58,544 nt of DNA from an uncultured Verrucomicrobia subdivision 3 bacterium (lineage in GTDB: Bacteria; Verrucomicrobiota; Verrucomicrobiia; Limisphaerales; UBA11358). The stretch is from the NCBI GenBank assembly GCA_903827955.1, contig CAIKKJ010000101.1:1-58544 (forward strand), given 5' to 3'. Under the pieces are notes generated by a model, which did not search any database, had not been told where the DNA came from, and was given only the letters and a program-made list of their open reading frames with translations. Made by a program: the position numbers and the translations under genes. Numbering within the stretch: the first letter of the stretch is position 1; each line of letters opens with the position of its first letter. Shown here piece by piece: positions 4,483 through 15,419 of this stretch.

Positions 4483-6201
4483 TTAGTAGGTATAATTCCG
4501 GTGGTTTTCGCCGTGGCATTTCAGATTGCAAGTGCCCTTGAACGTGCCAGTGGAAAGATAGTTCAACTGGCCGAGCGAATTCGTGGTGACGTAGGTCGGG
4601 TTGAAGTTGATGAGATGCGGCGCGTTGGCTACGCCATGCGAGTCGTGACACGTCGTGCAGGCGGTTTTCTTGTCCACGACGTGCTTGCTGTGGTAACGAA
4701 AGCTGGCACTGCTCAAAACCTTTGTGCGGTCGTGGCATTTGTAACAAAGTGCGTAGGCGGCAGGGCTTTCGGATTGGTTGTCGGCCGTGACGAGATTGCG
4801 CTCCAGCAGCGGACGATATGCCGAACCGTGCGGGCCGTTCGCGCCACTGCCGCCAGCGTTCGGACCGCTGTCGCTGTTGTGACAATCGGTGCAATACATC
4901 ACGCTGGAAGTTTTCCAGGGTGAAATCAGGCTCGGCACGCTCGTCCCGTTTTTGCCGACGGCTTCCACGGGATGAAAACTCAGATTTGCCGGCGCAAATT
5001 CTAGGCGCGTGTTCGTCTGGACATATTGGCGGGGAACGACCGCTGCGCCGCGTTGCGTGCTGTCGGCATGGCAGCGGAAACAAAGTTCATATTCGTTTTG
5101 CAACGGCTTGATGACACCGCCCGCCGCCGTGACACCGGTGAGATTGGCCAGTGCGCCGGAAGCCTTTGGAGCCATGGCGCTCGCCGTATTTGCCGCGTGC
5201 GAATCATGACAGTCGGAGCAGGTCACGTGGCGTGTCGGGGGATTAATCGGGTCTTCCGTAGATGTATGCGACCTGCCGTTGAGCATGACGGGATGCACGC
5301 TCAACTTTTGAAAATCCGCGTTCACATTTTTTTTTGCGGTTGTTCCGCTGTGGCAATTCACACAATTTTGCTCCAAGGCCGCCGCCTGCAACAGCCGGCT
5401 GCCGGACGCCGCTGCATGGTTCACATGGCAATTTTCACACGCCAGCGCAGAGATGGTTTGCGCGGAAACCGGCTTCGCCTTCGCGCCGGAATTTTTCGCC
5501 ACGCGCGCCGTGACCGATTGTGGCGCGACTGCCGCCGACAGCGCATGCGGTGAACCTGACCATTGCGTTGGCTGATGACACGTCACGCACAAGGCCGAGG
5601 CGTTATTATCCATCACCAGAAACTTGCCAAACTGATTGTCGTGCGGGTTATGGCAGGAGGTGCATTGCACCCGATAAATGCCGCCGACTGATTCGAATTT
5701 TACCGCGTGGTTCACCGATGCGCGTGGGTTGAGCGTGTTGTCCACCGCTGCACAAGCATCGTAGTCCAGCGACACCGGATGATCTTGTGATAAATCCGTG
5801 CCGAGATTATTCGCGCCGGACGGCATGGTGGTCACGCCGCCCTGCAAAGTGATGGCGCCCGCGCCGCTACTGATATCCCCGAGCGCCACTGTGCCATCGT
5901 GACAGCTCAAACAAAGCCGCGACGAACCGTTGGGTTGGGGAACGGTAATGTTCATGTTTGTCAGCCGCGCGCTGCCATAGACGACGTAGTTAGACACGGA
6001 CGACATCGAGTGATTCCACAACGGTGTCGCGCCGTTGGCATGATGCGGCGTGTGGCAGAAGACGCAGACATTTTTTTCCGACGTGGCTTTTATGGTGCCG
6101 GGGCCGTTGACCGTAAGGTCGTGCGGCGAGTTGACAACACTGGCGGCGAACGCGGCGGTGCTCAACATCAACCAAAGCAAAATGTATGTTTTTAATTTCA
6201 T
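4483..6201 (-). CDS. Secreted dodecaheme c-type cytochrome
   Basis: A 572-residue protein with a signal peptide (cleavage near residue 20 after TAAFAA). It has eleven CXXCH motifs, starting at residues 46, 97, 180, 205, 255, 280, 328, 374, 437, 486 and 515. One CX3CH (CNLKCH) at 558-563 gives up to twelve haems. The N-terminal part (CVFCHTPH, then TPLWNHS, then LCLSCHDGTVALGD) repeats the pattern of the tetraheme cytochrome at 11668. Many CXXCH sites are followed by N/D-x-H, as in doubled-CXXCH proteins. It is co-transcribed with the preceding NHL gene through an ATGA overlap. The likely location is periplasm or cell surface, as an electron carrier of the conduit. There is no lipobox or membrane helix after the signal. 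Confidence 0.9.
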   Translation of the reverse strand: MKLKTYILLWLMLSTAAFAASVVNSPHDLTVNGPGTIKATSEKNVCVFCHTPHHANGATPLWNHSMSSVSNYVVYGSARLTNMNITVPQPNGSSRLCLSCHDGTVALGDISSGAGAITLQGGVTTMPSGANNLGTDLSQDHPVSLDYDACAAVDNTLNPRASVNHAVKFESVGGIYRVQCTSCHNPHDNQFGKFLVMDNNASALCVTCHQPTQWSGSPHALSAAVAPQSVTARVAKNSGAKAKPVSAQTISALACENCHVNHAAASGSRLLQAAALEQNCVNCHSGTTAKKNVNADFQKLSVHPVMLNGRSHTSTEDPINPPTRHVTCSDCHDSHAANTASAMAPKASGALANLTGVTAAGGVIKPLQNEYELCFRCHADSTQRGAAVVPRQYVQTNTRLEFAPANLSFHPVEAVGKNGTSVPSLISPWKTSSVMYCTDCHNSDSGPNAGGSGANGPHGSAYRPLLERNLVTADNQSESPAAYALCYKCHDRTKVLSSASFRYHSKHVVDKKTACTTCHDSHGVANAPHLINFNPTYVTTNSLGQLNYLSTGTFKGTCNLKCHGENHRNYTY

Positions 6202-7220
6202 GGCTGGCCGATGTATTTGAATTCCTGCACGCGGTGATTCATCGAATCCGCAACATAAATCCGGTTGTCCGCACCGATGACCATTCCGGCCGGTAAATCA
6301 AACCTGCCAGACGCGCCGCCGCCGCCACCAACCGTAAGCAGCAACTGCCCGGCCGGGGCGAAAATCTGGATGTTGTCAAACAGCGCGTCGGCGACGTAAA
6401 TGCGCCCGGCGGCATCCGCCGCCACGCCTTTGGGCCGCGCGAAATGGCCGGGGGTGTCGCTGTTCCCGCCGAACTGCAAAAGAAATTTTCCGTCCGCTGA
6501 AAAAATCTGCACGCGGCAGTTCATTGAGTCGGTCACCAACCAGCGTCCCTGCCCGTCGGCGGCGATGTGCGTGGGAAAATTGAACTCGCCATCCCCGGAG
6601 CCGCGCCGACCGAACGAGAATAAAAATTTTCCAGCGAGGTCGAAAACAAAAACTGCGTGAGCCTGGGAATCCACGACGGCAAGCTGCGTTCCCGTAATCG
6701 CCAATCCGGCCGGGCGGACGAGCGCGTTGGTGATTTCAAAACCAAGCCGTCCATCCGCACTGAAAGCGAGAATTTTTCCGAGACTGGAATCGGCGACATA
6801 AAAAACCTCATTTCGCCTGGCAACCGCCACGGGCATGGCAAACTGTGTTTTTCCCGCGGCGGTATAGCGCCGCCAGATTTTGTTTTTAAAATCAATCAGA
6901 CACACGGTCTTCGCGCCAGTGTCAGTCACGCAGAGGTTGCCCTTTTCATCCAGCGCCAGGCCGCACGGTTTGCGCAGCGCGAGGCTCTCGCCATTTTCGC
7001 CGGTGAGCCAGTGGCCGACGCGTGTGAAGACAGATTCACTTTGCCCGATATCACGCGGCGATGAATAGCTACCAGCGTAGGCGATGCGCGGTTCGTCCGG
7101 TGGTGATGGCCAGACGGGCGCAGCAATTGCCACGAGGGGTTTTGGCGCGCTGGCGCATGAAACGAACAGCACGGCCAGCAAGCCAAAAGCAAAATTATAA
7201 ATCTGTTTCCAAGGTTTCAT
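6198..7220 (-). CDS. NHL-repeat beta-propeller lipoprotein (second copy)
   Basis: A 340-residue protein with a lipoprotein signal ending in LFVSCAS (Cys22), then a PPDEPRIAY motif shared with the other NHL lipoprotein at 10300. The rest consists of NHL blades such as PCGLALDEKGNLCVTDTG, PKGVAADAAGRIYVADA and PAGMVIGADNRIYVADSMNH, which predict a six-bladed propeller. It lies 2 bases after the barrel gene and overlaps the 12-heme gene by 4 bases, so it is tightly coupled. NHL proteins recur in porin-cytochrome clusters, possibly as scaffolds at the membrane. Ligand and partner are unknown. No haem motif is present. Confidence 0.88.
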   Translation of the reverse strand: MKPWKQIYNFAFGLLAVLFVSCASAPKPLVAIAAPVWPSPPDEPRIAYAGSYSSPRDIGQSESVFTRVGHWLTGENGESLALRKPCGLALDEKGNLCVTDTGAKTVCLIDFKNKIWRRYTAAGKTQFAMPVAVARRNEVFYVADSSLGKILAFSADGRLGFEITNALVRPAGLAITGTQLAVVDSQAHAVFVFDLAGKFLFSFGRRGSGDGEFNFPTHIAADGQGRWLVTDSMNCRVQIFSADGKFLLQFGGNSDTPGHFARPKGVAADAAGRIYVADALFDNIQIFAPAGQLLLTVGGGGGASGRFDLPAGMVIGADNRIYVADSMNHRVQEFKYIGQP

Positions 7221-7222
7221 GG

Positions 7223-9256
7223 TCAGAAGTTGCGGCGCATCCGCAAATAGACGAATTCCCGCTGGCGTTTTTCGGCGACATATTCTTGGTCATCATGCTC
7301 GAAGCCGAGGTGAAGTTCCAGTTTGCCGATGTTCCAGTTTAAGTAGGTGCGGGCGGCAAACAAATTTTGGTCATAACCCAGACCGGCTTGTCGCTGGTAG
7401 CCGGCCTCGATATTCCAAGTGAAGCTGGAGGTGGGATGCCAATTGTAGTGGGTCATCAAACTGTAGAAACTGCCGGTTTGCGTGGCATTGGTGGAAGTGC
7501 CGCTGCCGGGCGGGTAAACATTCCACTGCTCGCTCAATTCCACGCCGACGGTTGAGTGGCTGGAAATGGGCGTGGCGTAGCCCTGATTAAATGTCAGGCT
7601 TTGAAAGTCGTAGAGCGTGGAACGCTGGTCGGTGTAACTGCCGCTGGCGTGAAAATCGTGCCATTCGCAGTCGGCACCGATTTCGAAAGCGTTAAAATTC
7701 TGGAGTAGAAATTCGTCGGAACTGGCCTGGTTCACTGTAACGTTGTAGCTGGCGTAGATTTCGGCGCGATCATCCCAGAAACGCAGGCTGGCGCGGCAAT
7801 TGTCGGTGACGGTGGAATACGAACCAGAAGGATTAGATTGCGCAGTGTAGGAGATTGTAACCGTATCGCCGGGTTGGACGTTGCTGATGGGCGAGGTGAA
7901 AAATTGTATCTGCCACGGGTCGCTGGCCTGGTTGACGTGCCACTCGCTGGGGTCCAGTTCTAAATTGTTTTTTTTGACGCTGGTAATAGATAAGTCCCGC
8001 GGCTGTTTCAAGCGGATAATCATCGGCCCGATGGTGGGGATGCTGTGCGCTTCATCGGAGATGAACTGTTGCGAACCAGTGCTGTCCTGGCTGGTGAAAT
8101 CGCAGCCGAGATTGTTGCCCAGCGTCAATCTTCCCCAATCACCGAGGCGTTTCGTGTAGTCCTCGTTTTCATCAACGCCAATGGAGTAAGAATCCAAAGT
8201 GGAACCAAACGAGGAACTGCTCAGCTGCGAACCATGCGCGTTGAACCCGGAACACAGACTTTCGTAGAGTTGATGGCCGACGCCGGCACTAAAATTATTT
8301 TCCACCGAATCGCTGCCATTGCCGGAATAGGTGGAAAACGCGTAATTGTAAAAACTATGCAATTGCGGCGAGTGGTCGTAATTGTAGCCCACGGTGGCGT
8401 TCAGATTTTCCGACGAGGACTGCGCCGAAATTGTATCGTAAAAATATACGCCGGAATTCAACGTGCTGTGCGAAAAATGCTCCAGATCGGTTAAGGTGAC
8501 ACGGTGGTAGCTGTTCTCGCTGGTCGAGGTGACCACCTGATAGTGGTTCTGATAATTGAGCTGGCTGTATTGATAGGTGAAATCTGTTGCATCCTGTTTC
8601 CGCCGCTCATTGCGGGCATGCAAGTCCAACATGAACTGCTCGCTAATGGTTTCTTGATTGTAACCCAAACTATCGGAATTCGATTTGTGCACCGAGAGGG
8701 AAACGGGCACCGGCCCTTCGCGATAGCCGGTGGTCACCCCCAAATTTTCCGCGTCTGTGGTGGCGGAATTATAGAAGTCATAATGCACCTCGTCATGTGA
8801 CCGCGTATAATCCAACGTGGTCGCATATGGTTTTTCCCGCAGTAAGATTCCATTCAACGATCCATTTAACAGTAAAGAGTCCTGGCTGCTGCTATAACCC
8901 GTGCCGTTGATTTGCGTCCAGTCAAAACCCGGTTCCACGAGTGTAGAAAAAAAGAATAAATCCGGGTGATAAATAAAATAATCCCACCCTATCCCCACCG
9001 TCGGCGAAACATAAACGCGCTGATATGACGTGCTGCTACCGCCGGTTTTGGAATTATAAGTGGTGTCCTCCGCCTCCACATCCGTCTTGATGTAGCGCAG
9101 ATGCGGCACAAACACAAACCACAGCGGATCCTGACGCTCAATGCCCCACGGCGCGTCATTCGCCCACAACTTCGTGACGCCGGCGGCCAGCACCAGCACC
9201 GTCAGTGCACGGAGTCGCCGGCGTTGACGTTGTTGATTCTTGCGCGCGGTTTTCAT
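7223..9256 (-). CDS. Outer-membrane beta-barrel, putative conduit porin
   Basis: A 677-residue protein. The signal sequence follows an unusually basic start (KTARKNQQRQRRRLRAL) and ends near LWA. The mature part is rich in alternating aromatic and polar strands, with repeated S/T/Y/N-rich segments. The last residue is Phe (RMRRNF), the usual BAM signal of outer-membrane barrels. An insert around residues 400-465 (IIRLKQPRDLSITS to DTVTISYTAQ) looks like a separate beta-sandwich. No CXXC near the N-terminus, unlike MtrB. Its start overlaps the stop of an 11-heme lipoprotein by 4 bases and NHL and 12-heme genes follow. This supports a porin that wraps a multiheme cytochrome. Sequence alone does not prove the family. 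Confidence 0.78.
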   Translation of the reverse strand: MKTARKNQQRQRRRLRALTVLVLAAGVTKLWANDAPWGIERQDPLWFVFVPHLRYIKTDVEAEDTTYNSKTGGSSTSYQRVYVSPTVGIGWDYFIYHPDLFFFSTLVEPGFDWTQINGTGYSSSQDSLLLNGSLNGILLREKPYATTLDYTRSHDEVHYDFYNSATTDAENLGVTTGYREGPVPVSLSVHKSNSDSLGYNQETISEQFMLDLHARNERRKQDATDFTYQYSQLNYQNHYQVVTSTSENSYHRVTLTDLEHFSHSTLNSGVYFYDTISAQSSSENLNATVGYNYDHSPQLHSFYNYAFSTYSGNGSDSVENNFSAGVGHQLYESLCSGFNAHGSQLSSSSFGSTLDSYSIGVDENEDYTKRLGDWGRLTLGNNLGCDFTSQDSTGSQQFISDEAHSIPTIGPMIIRLKQPRDLSITSVKKNNLELDPSEWHVNQASDPWQIQFFTSPISNVQPGDTVTISYTAQSNPSGSYSTVTDNCRASLRFWDDRAEIYASYNVTVNQASSDEFLLQNFNAFEIGADCEWHDFHASGSYTDQRSTLYDFQSLTFNQGYATPISSHSTVGVELSEQWNVYPPGSGTSTNATQTGSFYSLMTHYNWHPTSSFTWNIEAGYQRQAGLGYDQNLFAARTYLNWNIGKLELHLGFEHDDQEYVAEKRQREFVYLRMRRNF

Positions 9257-10257
9257 TTGGGAACAGCAGATGGTTTAAGCAACTTCACGTTTGTGCCGAC
9301 ATGCGGATCGTGGCACAGCACGCAGGACTTGCCTTCCGCACCAGCATGGCCTTTGACGACTTTCAAATCCTTGTCGTCATGGCAGTCGCCGCAAAGCTTG
9401 AGAATGTTTTTGGCGAGCAGCTTGGTTTCCGCGGATTGATGCGGGTTGTGGCAGCCGGTGCAGTCGTCCACGACATCGTGCTTAAATTTTGCCTTCTCCA
9501 AGAAATTGTCATGGCAATCCCAGCACAGCGCGGGCGAAGTTTTTTTGACGAGCTTTTTATTGTTCGACGCATGCGCAACATGGCAGGACAGGCAATCACC
9601 ATCGCCGACGGGTTGATGGACAAATTTTTTCTTGGCGACGTCATCATGACAATCGGCGCACGTATCCTTCACCGATTTTTTCAACAGCCCCTTGAAATTC
9701 GTCGCGTGCGGCGCGTGGCAGTCCAAGCAATCGCCTGATTCGACGGCCTGATGCTTGAATTTCAGCTTGGCCAGCGGATCATCATGGCAGACCAGACAAA
9801 GTGCCGAACCGGTCTTGACGAGCAATTTCGGATTCTTCGACTGGTGTGGATCGTGGCAGCTTTTGCAATCGCCTTCGCTGACCGGCTGATGCTGCACTTT
9901 CACGCCCGTCAAGAAATCCTTATGGCACTTGAAACAGAGCTTGGGCGGCGGCGCGGCCAGTTCCTGTGAAAAATCCGATTTGTGGCAGAGGCTACAATTG
10001 TTATCCGCAAACGGTTTATGCAGCTGAAATTTTTTTACTGGCGCGGCGGCTACAACGGTTGGCGCGTTCACCGACGCGACCGCATTGGTCTTAAGGTTCG
10101 CCGTAGCCTGGGCGGCTAACTGTTGCTCGCTGGGCACGCCGTCGAAAAAAAATGTCAGCCACTGACGCTTGCTTGCCGAACTGCACCCGACGGTGAGTAA
10201 CAGCACGCCGCTCGTCACCACTGCCGCGCGCAAAAGATTTTGGCTGAAATTCATCAA
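9253..10257 (-). CDS. 11-heme lipoprotein cytochrome (doubled CXXCH)
   Basis: A 334-residue protein with lipobox LTVGC (Cys25). It has eleven CXXCH sites, starting at residues 88, 108, 131, 154, 177, 200, 222, 245, 266, 289 and 312. Haems come in pairs about 20-23 residues apart, in a repeated unit of the form H-x-PV-x-x-GDC-x-x-CH-x-x-H followed by LC-x-x-CHDD, so the protein is built from about five tandem modules. The linker before the first haem contains WLTFFFDGVP. This compact, regular layout suits a haem wire inside the barrel encoded next. The ATGA overlap with that gene indicates co-synthesis. The lipid anchor could face the periplasm or the surface. Confidence 0.92.
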   Translation of the reverse strand: MMNFSQNLLRAAVVTSGVLLLTVGCSSASKRQWLTFFFDGVPSEQQLAAQATANLKTNAVASVNAPTVVAAAPVKKFQLHKPFADNNCSLCHKSDFSQELAAPPPKLCFKCHKDFLTGVKVQHQPVSEGDCKSCHDPHQSKNPKLLVKTGSALCLVCHDDPLAKLKFKHQAVESGDCLDCHAPHATNFKGLLKKSVKDTCADCHDDVAKKKFVHQPVGDGDCLSCHVAHASNNKKLVKKTSPALCWDCHDNFLEKAKFKHDVVDDCTGCHNPHQSAETKLLAKNILKLCGDCHDDKDLKVVKGHAGAEGKSCVLCHDPHVGTNVKLLKPSAVPK

Positions 10258-10299
10258 GTTGTGCTGCGTTGCCAGAGCGCCTGCCCGGCAAATCGTCGG

Positions 10300-11385
10300 T
10301 TATTTTTTTTGACCGAAGGCATAGACGCTCACTTTATGCGGACCAAATTGGTTGATCACATAGACGAGGAATTGCGCTTTGAATCCCGGCGCGACCATGT
10401 TGCTGAAATATTTCAGGTTGTCGTAATCCACCAACACTTTGGCCGGCAGATTGTCAAACTTCGGGCTGATCGTCGGGTCGCCAAAGAACATCAGCAGCTG
10501 CTTCTGGTCATCAAACATCTGGACGACTTGCGACATGGCATCGACCGCGTAAAGCCGGTTCTCCTGATCCACGGCAATGCCCTTGAGCCGGGAAAATTGC
10601 CCGAGCCCGTCGCCAAACTCGCCCACGGAATAGATGAATTTTCCCTCCGCATCGAAAACCTTCACCCGAAAATGTCCGGTGTCGGCCACATACAACCGGC
10701 CGCGCGAATCCAAGGCCAGATTGGTGGGCGTCTGGATTTCGATCTCGCGGTTGGTCGCATCGTTGCCACGCGGTATGTCAAAAAGTTTCTCGCGCGTCAC
10801 CTTGTCATAGACGTGAACATTGTGCGTCTGCAGGTCCGCCACATAAATTCGGGTTTGATTCACCACCACGTCACGCGGTTTCAATTCACCAACCTTGCCG
10901 ATGGCACCGACGAAATTTTCTTTGGCGTCAAAAATCACCACTTGATTGCGCCCGGTGTCGGCCACATACAAACTGCCGTCGGTATCCACGGACATATTCA
11001 GCGGCATCTTCAACTCACCTTCGCCTTGTGCATCCAGCATGCCCATGCGGCGCTTGGCCAAATCCACTTCGACTACGCCCCCGAGCTCGGTATCGCAGAT
11101 ATACAACTTCCCCTTGCCCGACGCTGCGCCGTAAGGTTTGCCTAAGCCGGTCTCAGGCACCTTCCGCCCGGTCACATAGGAAAGAAATGAATTATCATTG
11201 CCGCCGTTCAATTGTTTCTGGGTGCAAAAGGAAAAAAGATACTGGAGACGCGGCTCGTCCGGCGGGGTCGGAAAATAGAAAACCGGGGTCTTCTTGCCCT
11301 CCGTCGAAGCACAGCCGCCCAGCAATCCAAGCCCGAAACCACTGATAGTGAAAGCGATAAAGAATTTTGCGAAGTTTTTTTTCAT
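10300..11385 (-). CDS. NHL-repeat beta-propeller lipoprotein (first copy)
   Basis: A 361-residue protein with lipobox LLGGC (Cys25). The PPDEPRLQY motif matches that in the second NHL lipoprotein. NHL blades include PLNMSVDTDGSLYVADTGR, PTNLALDSRGRLYVADTG and LKGIAVDQENRLYAVDA. It is the first gene of the five-gene conduit operon, 42 bases before the 11-heme gene. The role is inferred from context: an envelope scaffold or sensor linked to the porin-cytochrome complex. Divergence from the second copy suggests old duplication and different partners. No haem motif. Confidence 0.88.
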   Translation of the reverse strand: MKKNFAKFFIAFTISGFGLGLLGGCASTEGKKTPVFYFPTPPDEPRLQYLFSFCTQKQLNGGNDNSFLSYVTGRKVPETGLGKPYGAASGKGKLYICDTELGGVVEVDLAKRRMGMLDAQGEGELKMPLNMSVDTDGSLYVADTGRNQVVIFDAKENFVGAIGKVGELKPRDVVVNQTRIYVADLQTHNVHVYDKVTREKLFDIPRGNDATNREIEIQTPTNLALDSRGRLYVADTGHFRVKVFDAEGKFIYSVGEFGDGLGQFSRLKGIAVDQENRLYAVDAMSQVVQMFDDQKQLLMFFGDPTISPKFDNLPAKVLVDYDNLKYFSNMVAPGFKAQFLVYVINQFGPHKVSVYAFGQKK

Positions 11386-11667: not shown

Positions 11668-12429
11668 TTATTTCTTATGGCATTCCAAGCAGAGCGCGCC
11701 GCCTTCGAGATCCACAATCAGCGAATGGCTGACCGTGGCGGAGGCGCCGGTGGTGCGATGGATGTCATGGCAGGAGGCACATTCGACCGTCTTGGAAGCA
11801 CCCTTGAGCATCTTGGGCAGTAGGTCGTAGGTGGTCGCTTGCAGTTCGTCGTCACCGCCGCTCACGCACGCCGTGTAGCTCACGCCGAGCGGGTGCATTT
11901 GGGTCAGGTCAGTGAAACCGACATAAGGGCCGGCACCGCTAGCAAACGTCCCGGCTTTCGCGGTCTCAATCGAGAAGGTCGGTGCATAAACCGCCGCGCC
12001 AGACAAGGAGTTGGTTGCATTTTTCCCGTTGCCACCTGCCGTCTGATTGATGGCCACCGAGCCATCATGGCAGCTCAAGCAGGCAATGGACGAACCGAGG
12101 GTGATGCTGCCACCTTTGTAGCTCGCGCTGCCAGCGGAATCGTAGGTGATATAGCTACTGGCTTGCGATGAAGGCGCGTGGTTCCACAGCGGCGCTTTGG
12201 CCGAAGCATAGGTCTGTGCCTTGTGCGGAATATGGCACACTTGGCACGGATTGTTGTAGGTGTTGGTTTCCCCGCCCCAGACGAACCGGGCGAGACCGTT
12301 GGTTTTTGCCGGCCCGTATGAGCCGGTTGGCGAGAAGTCGTGACCGCTGCCAATGATGGTGGCCTTGCTGACCGATGGCATTAAAGCCATCGTCGCTCCC
12401 AAGGCCAGGAGCATGGTTAGTTTTTTCAT
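11668..12429 (-). CDS. Secreted tetraheme c-type cytochrome
   Basis: A 253-residue protein. I set the start at the ATG at 12427-12429 because it gives a clean signal peptide (MKKLTMLLALGATMALMPSV, cleavage near SKA). The longer reading to 12591 adds a non-signal leader. CXXCH motifs begin at residues 62, 117, 217 and 247, the last lying at the very C-terminus (CLECHKK). The order CQVCHIPH, APLWNH, ACLSCHDGSVA and MHPLG parallels the first part of the 12-heme protein. It also recalls in layout the OmcE-type tetraheme cytochromes that polymerise into filaments in Geobacter. It has its own terminator, suggesting separate, perhaps high, expression. Filament formation is only a hypothesis. Confidence 0.9.
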   Translation of the reverse strand: MKKLTMLLALGATMALMPSVSKATIIGSGHDFSPTGSYGPAKTNGLARFVWGGETNTYNNPCQVCHIPHKAQTYASAKAPLWNHAPSSQASSYITYDSAGSASYKGGSITLGSSIACLSCHDGSVAINQTAGGNGKNATNSLSGAAVYAPTFSIETAKAGTFASGAGPYVGFTDLTQMHPLGVSYTACVSGGDDELQATTYDLLPKMLKGASKTVECASCHDIHRTTGASATVSHSLIVDLEGGALCLECHKK

Positions 12430-12571: not shown

Positions 12572-13648
12572 TCAAGCGGTCGCGTGGGCAAACACCCAGC
12601 CGGGTTGCGCTTCCACCGTTTCCGGCGATTTTTTTCCGAGCGGCGAATCGAACCGTTTCATCAATTCCGCCGCGTGTTCATCAATGATGGCCTGACAAAA
12701 TGAAAGTTCTTGCTCGCGGTTTTTGGTGTTCTCGCGGACGACCGCTTCCAGATCGTCAATGTCGTAGAGAAAAACATTCGGCAGCTCCGCCACCATCGGG
12801 TCAATGTCGCGTGGCACGGCAATATCCACGAGCACCAGCGGACGATTGCGCCGCGCGGGCAAAATTTTCGCCACGTCGTCGCGCCGCAAAACGATGTCTG
12901 CGCAGCCGGTTGAACTGACTAAAATGTCCGCCTCGGTCAGCGCCGCCGCCGAGTCCTCGATGCGCACCGCGCGGCCGCCGAATTCCGCCGCCAGTTTTTC
13001 CGCGCGCTCCACGGAGCGGTTTGCGACGAGCACCGTTTTTGCGCCGCGCTTGGCGAGATGCTTCACGCAGGCCTCGCCCATTTTTCCCGCGCCGAGAATC
13101 ATCACGGTCTTGCTGCTCAAGTCGCGGTCGAAAACTTTTTCCGCCAATTCCACCGCCACGCTGCCCACCGAAGTCGCGCCGCGCCCGATGGCGGTGTTGG
13201 TGCGGATTTTTTTCACAACGGCGAACGCGTCCTGAAACAGCCGGTTCATCTTTTTGCCAACCAACCCGGCGTCTTTCGCGGCTTGATACGCATTTTTCAC
13301 CTGGCCGGTGATTTCGGTTTCGCCGATGACCAACGAATCGAGCCCGCTCGCAACCGCGAACAAATGTTTCGCCGCGTCCGCACCTTCCTTGACGTAAAGG
13401 TGCGGCGTGAAATCGAAATCGCTGTTCGTGAGTTCCTGAAAGAGTTATTGCACGCGCCCGTGAATCCACGGCGACACGCCGTAAATCTCCACGCGGTTGC
13501 AGGTCGAGAGCAGCACCACCTCGGAAAGATTACCGCGCAGCTTCAGGCGGCAGCCGCTGCATTGCAGCCGCGAGCGTTGCACCGCCAGCTTCTCGCGCAC
13601 TTCCACCGGCGTGGTCTTGTAACTCAATCCTGCGACGAAAATTTTCAT
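12572..13648 (-). pseudogene. hemA: Glutamyl-tRNA reductase, interrupted by in-frame TAA
   Basis: HemA makes glutamate-1-semialdehyde from Glu-tRNA, the first step of C5 tetrapyrrole synthesis. The N-terminal part (13648 down to 13448) has MKIFVAGLSYKTTPVEVREKL and STCNRVEIYG with the catalytic Cys. A TAA at 13445-13447 follows GRVQ. The same frame then continues without any shift: LFQELTNSDFDF, then LFAVASGLDSLVIGETEITG, the NADP-binding VMILGAGKMGEA and VLVDIAVPRDIDP. Read through, the product is about 358 residues, within the short end of the family. One base change (for example CAA or GAA to TAA) explains it. The rest is well conserved, so this is a recent mutation, a sequencing error or readthrough. 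No nearby ATG would restart the second half; the first usable codon is a TTG at 13361-13363. Confidence 0.88.
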
Positions 13649-13718: not shown

Positions 13719-15419
13719 TCAACCTTCCTTGCTGTTCGCTTGACAATTTTTGCTGCTTTTACATTCCAGCGGATGCTCGTGCTGCTGGAATTTCTCGGAG
13801 ATCTTTCCGTCAATGCACGCTGTGTTTATGGGGTAAACGTCCGGATCGAACATGACGTGGTAGAAGTGCCAGACCACGATGGCGAGACTCGCCAGCACGG
13901 CCTCGTAGTAATGAATCGTCGTTGCCACCTCGACCGCCCAGCGTGGCAGAAATTGCGTCACATCCACCTTCAGCCAGATCATCAGACCGGTGACACCCAT
14001 GATGACCGTGCCCCAAACCACCGCCCAATACTCCAGCTTCTCCGCGTAGCCGAAGCGCCCGATTTTTGGCCGGTGTTTTTGAAAACCCGCCAGCCAGCCG
14101 ACCGCCAGCCAGAGGTCGGCCAAATCTTTTTTCACCGGAAACAAATCGCGCACAAGCTGGCGTCCATCGCGCGTGGCAAAAATATAAATCAGGTGATACG
14201 CCCCGACGCCGATCATCGCCACGCCTGCCACGCGATGCAGCCAGCGCCGGAACGATTCGTGCGAACCCAGCGCGTGCGCCAGCCACGAATCCGGAAATCG
14301 CAACGCAAATCCCGTCACCGCCAGCACGATGAAACTCGCCGCCAAAATAAAATGCTGGCTCCGCTGCGCCGCGCTCATCCGCAGCACCGGCCGCGCCGTC
14401 GCGCGCAAACGCGCCGCCGTTTTTTTCAGGAACGCAATCCCGTTATGCAACGCCATGCCGCCGATGGTGAAAAAAATCAGCAGCAAATAAATTTGCCGCA
14501 CCAGCCGGTTCACCCGGCTGCCCCAGTCCGCACCCATCCCCTGCCCGTCCGCTGCAACGTGGATTTTTCCCAGCGCAAAATTTTTGCCCGTGCCCGGATG
14601 GCAGCGTCCGCATGTCTCCACCAGATGCGCCGCGTTGATGGTCGAGTTCGTGTCCGCCGACGGCAAAATTTTGTGCCAGCCGTGGCAGCTCGCGCAGTTC
14701 GCCGCAACCGTTGAACCGAGCTGGCCGGCCAGGCCGTGATAGCTTTCAAAAAAAGTTTTCACGCGGTCCGACGGCAGGTTGTAACGCGCGTTGATGCGTT
14801 CTGACGAATGGCAACGGCTGCACACATCCGCCGAGATTGTCATCGAGCCAGCGTTTTTCAGGGAACGGATTTGATGCTCGTAATGACAGCCCGTGCAAGT
14901 CGGCGCATCATGCGAACCGGCGGCAACGGCCTTGCCATGCACACTCGTCGCCCACTCACGCGCTTCCCGGTCATGGCACGCGCCGCAGGTCGCCGCCTGC
15001 CGCGCAAAATAAATCGGCGAGGTCGGCGAATTGTTCGCTATGATCTCATGTGAATCATGGCAGTCCTTGCAGACCGCGGCCTCCTTGTGTCCGGCTTTTT
15101 GCGCAAGCCCGTGCGCGCTCGCATTGAAGCTGGCCGTCTGCCGCTCGTGACAGGACGCGCAGTTCACCTGCGACACCAGCCGGTTGTCGTCGGGATGTTT
15201 CGCCGTCACGTCCGCATGGCAACTGACGCAGGAATTTGTGCGATGCGCCGAGAGCTTGAACTTGGCGTAATCAACGAAGAGCGAAAAAGATTTTCCCGCA
15301 GAATTGGTTCTGGCAAACGAGCTGTCGGCGTGGCAGTCAAGGCAGTCGCTGTCCTTCACGCCCGCCAGCAACGGCGCGGTCGCGAGGCAAAAAAACAGCG
15401 CGAAGACAACACGGCTCAT
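13719..15419 (-). CDS. Nine-heme cytochrome c fused to cytochrome b (CbcL-like)
   Basis: A 566-residue inner-membrane protein. The signal ends near LLAG. Nine CXXCH motifs begin at residues 26, 64, 87, 117, 145, 175, 200, 242 and 270, several followed by SxH or HGK-type segments. A membrane domain of about five helices follows (near 308-330, 356-376, 396-415, 464-484 and 501-521). It carries b-type ligand candidates His356, His395, His409, His503 and His518. Nine c-haems plus a di-haem b domain in one chain is the design of Geobacter CbcL, a menaquinol oxidase used for low-potential extracellular acceptors. The quinol role is inferred. Close to hemA and downstream of pyc, all on one strand. 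Confidence 0.88.
   Translation of the reverse strand: MSRVVFALFFCLATAPLLAGVKDSDCLDCHADSSFARTNSAGKSFSLFVDYAKFKLSAHRTNSCVSCHADVTAKHPDDNRLVSQVNCASCHERQTASFNASAHGLAQKAGHKEAAVCKDCHDSHEIIANNSPTSPIYFARQAATCGACHDREAREWATSVHGKAVAAGSHDAPTCTGCHYEHQIRSLKNAGSMTISADVCSRCHSSERINARYNLPSDRVKTFFESYHGLAGQLGSTVAANCASCHGWHKILPSADTNSTINAAHLVETCGRCHPGTGKNFALGKIHVAADGQGMGADWGSRVNRLVRQIYLLLIFFTIGGMALHNGIAFLKKTAARLRATARPVLRMSAAQRSQHFILAASFIVLAVTGFALRFPDSWLAHALGSHESFRRWLHRVAGVAMIGVGAYHLIYIFATRDGRQLVRDLFPVKKDLADLWLAVGWLAGFQKHRPKIGRFGYAEKLEYWAVVWGTVIMGVTGLMIWLKVDVTQFLPRWAVEVATTIHYYEAVLASLAIVVWHFYHVMFDPDVYPINTACIDGKISEKFQQHEHPLECKSSKNCQANSKEG

Follow-up and report, generated by a model that had tools for sequence, protein, structure and literature searches.

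A premature stop codon in a cytochrome-linked second hemA gene of an uncultured Verrucomicrobia subdivision 3 bacterium

Can a bacterium that carries dozens of haem-binding sites afford a stop codon in hemA, the gene for glutamyl-tRNA reductase (GluTR), the first enzyme of haem synthesis? The question is raised by a 58,544-nucleotide stretch of DNA (the window; NCBI GenBank assembly GCA_903827955.1, contig CAIKKJ010000101.1) from an uncultured Verrucomicrobia subdivision 3 bacterium. A preliminary description of the window, which gave no strand for the gene, had reported both halves of hemA as conserved and in the same frame, with a TAA at 13445-13447 as the sole break, and had remarked that loss of the first step of haem synthesis would be surprising unless another hemA exists. 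The probable explanation is a recent nonsense mutation in a redundant, cytochrome-linked hemA paralogue.

Reverse-complement translation gives one full GluTR (HemA) frame on the minus strand (13648-12572), interrupted by a single internal stop (Table 1). The translation begins MKIFVAGLSYKTTPVEVREKL, reaches STCNRVEIYGVSPWIHGRVQ directly before the internal stop, resumes with LFQELTNSDFDF and ends in AHATA before the terminal stop. Read through, it matches the orthologue model at 725 bits over model positions 1-357, with '1 TAA' inside, and the match to the GluTR N-terminal domain (156.8 bits) spans the stop; translation and model match thus confirm the reported structure of the gene. The read-through frame aligns with HemA (TIGR01035; PF05201) over its full length and keeps the STCNR active-site motif, whose cysteine (C50) is invariant in the aligned copies of both hemA lineages discussed below; it differs from HemA in its stop at codon 68 of 358. 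Intact orthologues of the window copy score 369-372 bits against TIGR01035 (cut-off 209.55) and align with both solved GluTR structures, 1gpj (Methanopyrus) and 4n7r (Arabidopsis).

Table 1. Features of the interrupted hemA and its neighbourhood (positions in the window).
Feature	Position	Strand	Basis
Multihaem cytochrome c / cytochrome b561 fusion, 9 CxxCH; syntenic neighbour upstream of hemA	13719..15419	-	
Accessory hemA (putative glutamyl-tRNA reductase paralogue), interrupted, 358 codons	12572..13648	-	translation, model match, orthologues
Open N-terminal stub, 67 aa; conserved CxxC (C30, C33) and STCNR active-site motif (C50)	13448..13648	-	
In-frame TAA, codon 68	13445..13447	-	sense codon in relatives
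In-frame remainder 3' of the stop, 290 codons; conservation like intact orthologues	12572..13444	-	
Small multihaem cytochrome, 4 CxxCH; downstream of hemA	11668..12429	-	
Porin-cytochrome-like run	4483..11385	-	domain matches, synteny
MtrC/paired-CXXCH cytochromes in the run	4483-6201, 9253-10257	-	
NHL-repeat proteins in the run	6198-7220, 10300-11385	-	
677-aa protein without Pfam match, between cytochrome and NHL-repeat genes	7223-9256	-	

The haem-rich setting is as first described: multihaem cytochrome genes stand on both sides of hemA, and the large window genes listed hold 52 CxxCH motifs. From its position, the 677-aa protein may be the outer-membrane porin of a porin-cytochrome complex. 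For clusters of porin and multihaem cytochrome c genes in freshwater Verrucomicrobia, He et al. (2017, PMC5615132) proposed a possible role in extracellular electron transfer; the window, which comes from the same phylum, likewise holds a cluster of multihaem cytochrome genes, along with a large protein that may be the porin. The genes next to hemA are full length and match those of relatives, for which reason decay of the cluster as a whole was rejected, and the flanking cytochrome genes are common to the orthologue loci.

The apparent loss of haem synthesis vanishes because a second, uninterrupted hemA, together with hemL and hemB, is present. When the genome that contains the window was searched for GluTR, two matches of equal strength emerged, the window copy and a copy on contig C110. 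The latter, a housekeeping hemA, is intact (341 aa; TIGR01035, 347.8 bits) and has a ccsB-like gene on one side and hemC on the other, in a ccsA-hemA-hemC cluster. Both hemL, which scores above its cut-off, and hemB are intact in the same genome. The genome thus has a normal C5 route (HemA, HemL, HemB, HemC) through the housekeeping hemA. No ALA synthase reaches the model cut-off of 338.55 bits in this genome; two matches of 271 and 137 bits fall below it, for which reason this alternative route was rejected, and they are most simply read as related aminotransferase-fold enzymes.

The window hemA is the accessory copy and belongs to a second hemA lineage, noted from the window copy and the loci L033-L062 and L065-L094. 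Orthologues of it are widespread in Limisphaerales and stand next to multihaem cytochrome genes. In a midpoint-rooted protein tree, accessory and housekeeping copies separate, with support of 0.73 on the accessory side and 1.0 on the housekeeping side. An orthologue of the window copy occurs in about 35 other genomes of the genus; most close orthologues share 81-90% protein identity with it, and their source assemblies belong to Verrucomicrobia subdivision 3 / Limisphaerales. Of the 30 accessory loci of the genus, the window's own included, 28 have within about 1.5 kb a reading frame that contains three or more CxxCH motifs, versus none of 26 housekeeping loci. Accessory copies carry an N-terminal CxxC (exceptions: L089 and L125) that is seen in no housekeeping copy examined; this motif and the linkage to multihaem cytochromes set nearly the whole clade apart from HemA as otherwise known. 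Several members of the genus that are more than 90% complete (such as G013, G030 and G039) have the housekeeping copy only, and the accessory hemA is therefore dispensable.

How did the stop arise? Codon 68 is among the less constrained positions, outside the catalytic residues. Every relative examined has a sense codon there, and the residue varies freely (Gln, Ala, Arg, His, Pro, Ser, Glu, Lys or Gly). Since five close relatives carry CAA or CAG (Gln), the simplest origin of the TAA would be one C-to-T change, CAA to TAA. Within the genus, the window copy is the only one with a stop in its GluTR N-terminal domain, and none of 44 accessory-type copies across the order is interrupted over its aligned length. 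The disabling change is thus absent from orthologues, as in a young pseudogene. A frame that is open and conserved on either side of the TAA could also suggest that the codon is read through or recoded to give a full-length protein, but this is the least probable of the explanations considered: the UUA anticodon is absent from all 46 tRNA genes typed with the Rfam tRNA model in the roughly 95% complete assembly, TAA terminates five other window genes, and a stop at codon 68 recurs in no relative examined. Neither a TAA-decoding tRNA nor conserved readthrough was found.

The age of the stop is constrained by the state of the remaining gene, measured by pairwise dN/dS and counts of private codons. 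Against relatives, the window hemA has a dN/dS of 0.099, compared with 0.063-0.131 for intact copies; dN is normal both before and after the stop, and of 212 positions that do not vary among close relatives the window gene has changed one, much as intact copies have. Constraint like that of intact orthologues leaves three options for the stop: a very young mutation, a strain variant or a consensus error. Relaxed constraint after inactivation is absent, which is expected whether the change is very recent or an error. With decay limited to one codon, the gene fits a recent mutation no better than it fits an error of assembly or a strain variant present in a minority.

The main rival, which is possible though less probable than a real mutation, is that metagenome assembly produced the TAA, as a consensus error or by choosing a minority strain variant, and that most or all cells have an intact gene. 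The assembly is in 213 contigs and hence fragmented (95% complete, 3.4% contamination), and the relatives used for comparison are themselves metagenome assemblies. Against this, there is no homopolymer at the site, no other gene among the 24 large window genes listed is interrupted, so that the contig is not obviously error-rich, and a real loss is tolerable here, the broken gene being redundant. The base is probably real in the organism. Like other recently inactivated redundant paralogues, the window hemA combines a single nonsense change with a constrained gene and an intact paralogue elsewhere; it differs from them in that its change is known from assembled sequence alone.

If the nonsense mutation is real, a Gln codon CAA would very recently have become TAA, and the product would be a 67-residue fragment that lacks the NADPH-binding domain and the remainder of the catalytic domain. 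The window copy should then be dead, and the C5 pathway would make haem from the intact housekeeping copy onwards. In-frame restart codons from codon 96 on, together with conservation of the part downstream of the stop, might instead allow a restart of translation and a truncated C-terminal protein, comprising the NADPH-binding and dimerisation parts, in a non-catalytic role. This is very improbable, given that no convincing ribosome-binding site precedes these codons, that the active-site Cys50 would be lost and that such a form is seen in no relative examined. Under a recent nonsense mutation, the stop matters little, as one of two hemA genes is removed.

The accessory GluTR family is of more interest than the stop, which is probably real but ordinary. 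One tentative and rather unlikely proposal is that the accessory HemA copies form a GluTR subfamily of their own, which serves the porin-multihaem-cytochrome (extracellular electron transfer) loci of Verrucomicrobia by supplying or regulating their haem, perhaps under redox or metal control through the N-terminal CxxC; in that case, the window genome would represent a natural knock-out. Literature searches turned up no direct precedent for a second GluTR linked to cytochromes, and the phrase 'glutamyl-tRNA reductase' does not occur in He et al. (2017, PMC5615132). A partial parallel comes from cytochrome-rich Shewanella, which is reported to have two ferrochelatases (hemH; PMC6664582). There too, an enzyme of haem synthesis is present twice in a bacterium rich in cytochromes, but in Shewanella the last step (hemH) is duplicated, whereas here it is the first (hemA).

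Two further loci vary the pattern. In another class of the phylum, the hemA at 1474-2568 of locus L152 (genome G342) is flanked on both sides by multihaem cytochrome genes; its active-site motif reads WTCNR in place of STCNR, and it has no CxxC. In genome G014 (94% complete), the only hemA seen is of the accessory type (L125; G014:C8:119500-128500), adjoining a multihaem cytochrome and without the CxxC, and no housekeeping copy was found in that assembly.

If the gap in G014 is not missing sequence, the accessory enzyme alone would have to supply haem in that organism. More broadly, the way in which a second GluTR accompanies multihaem cytochrome loci in many genera suggests that haem supply may be duplicated along with the machinery of electron transfer.
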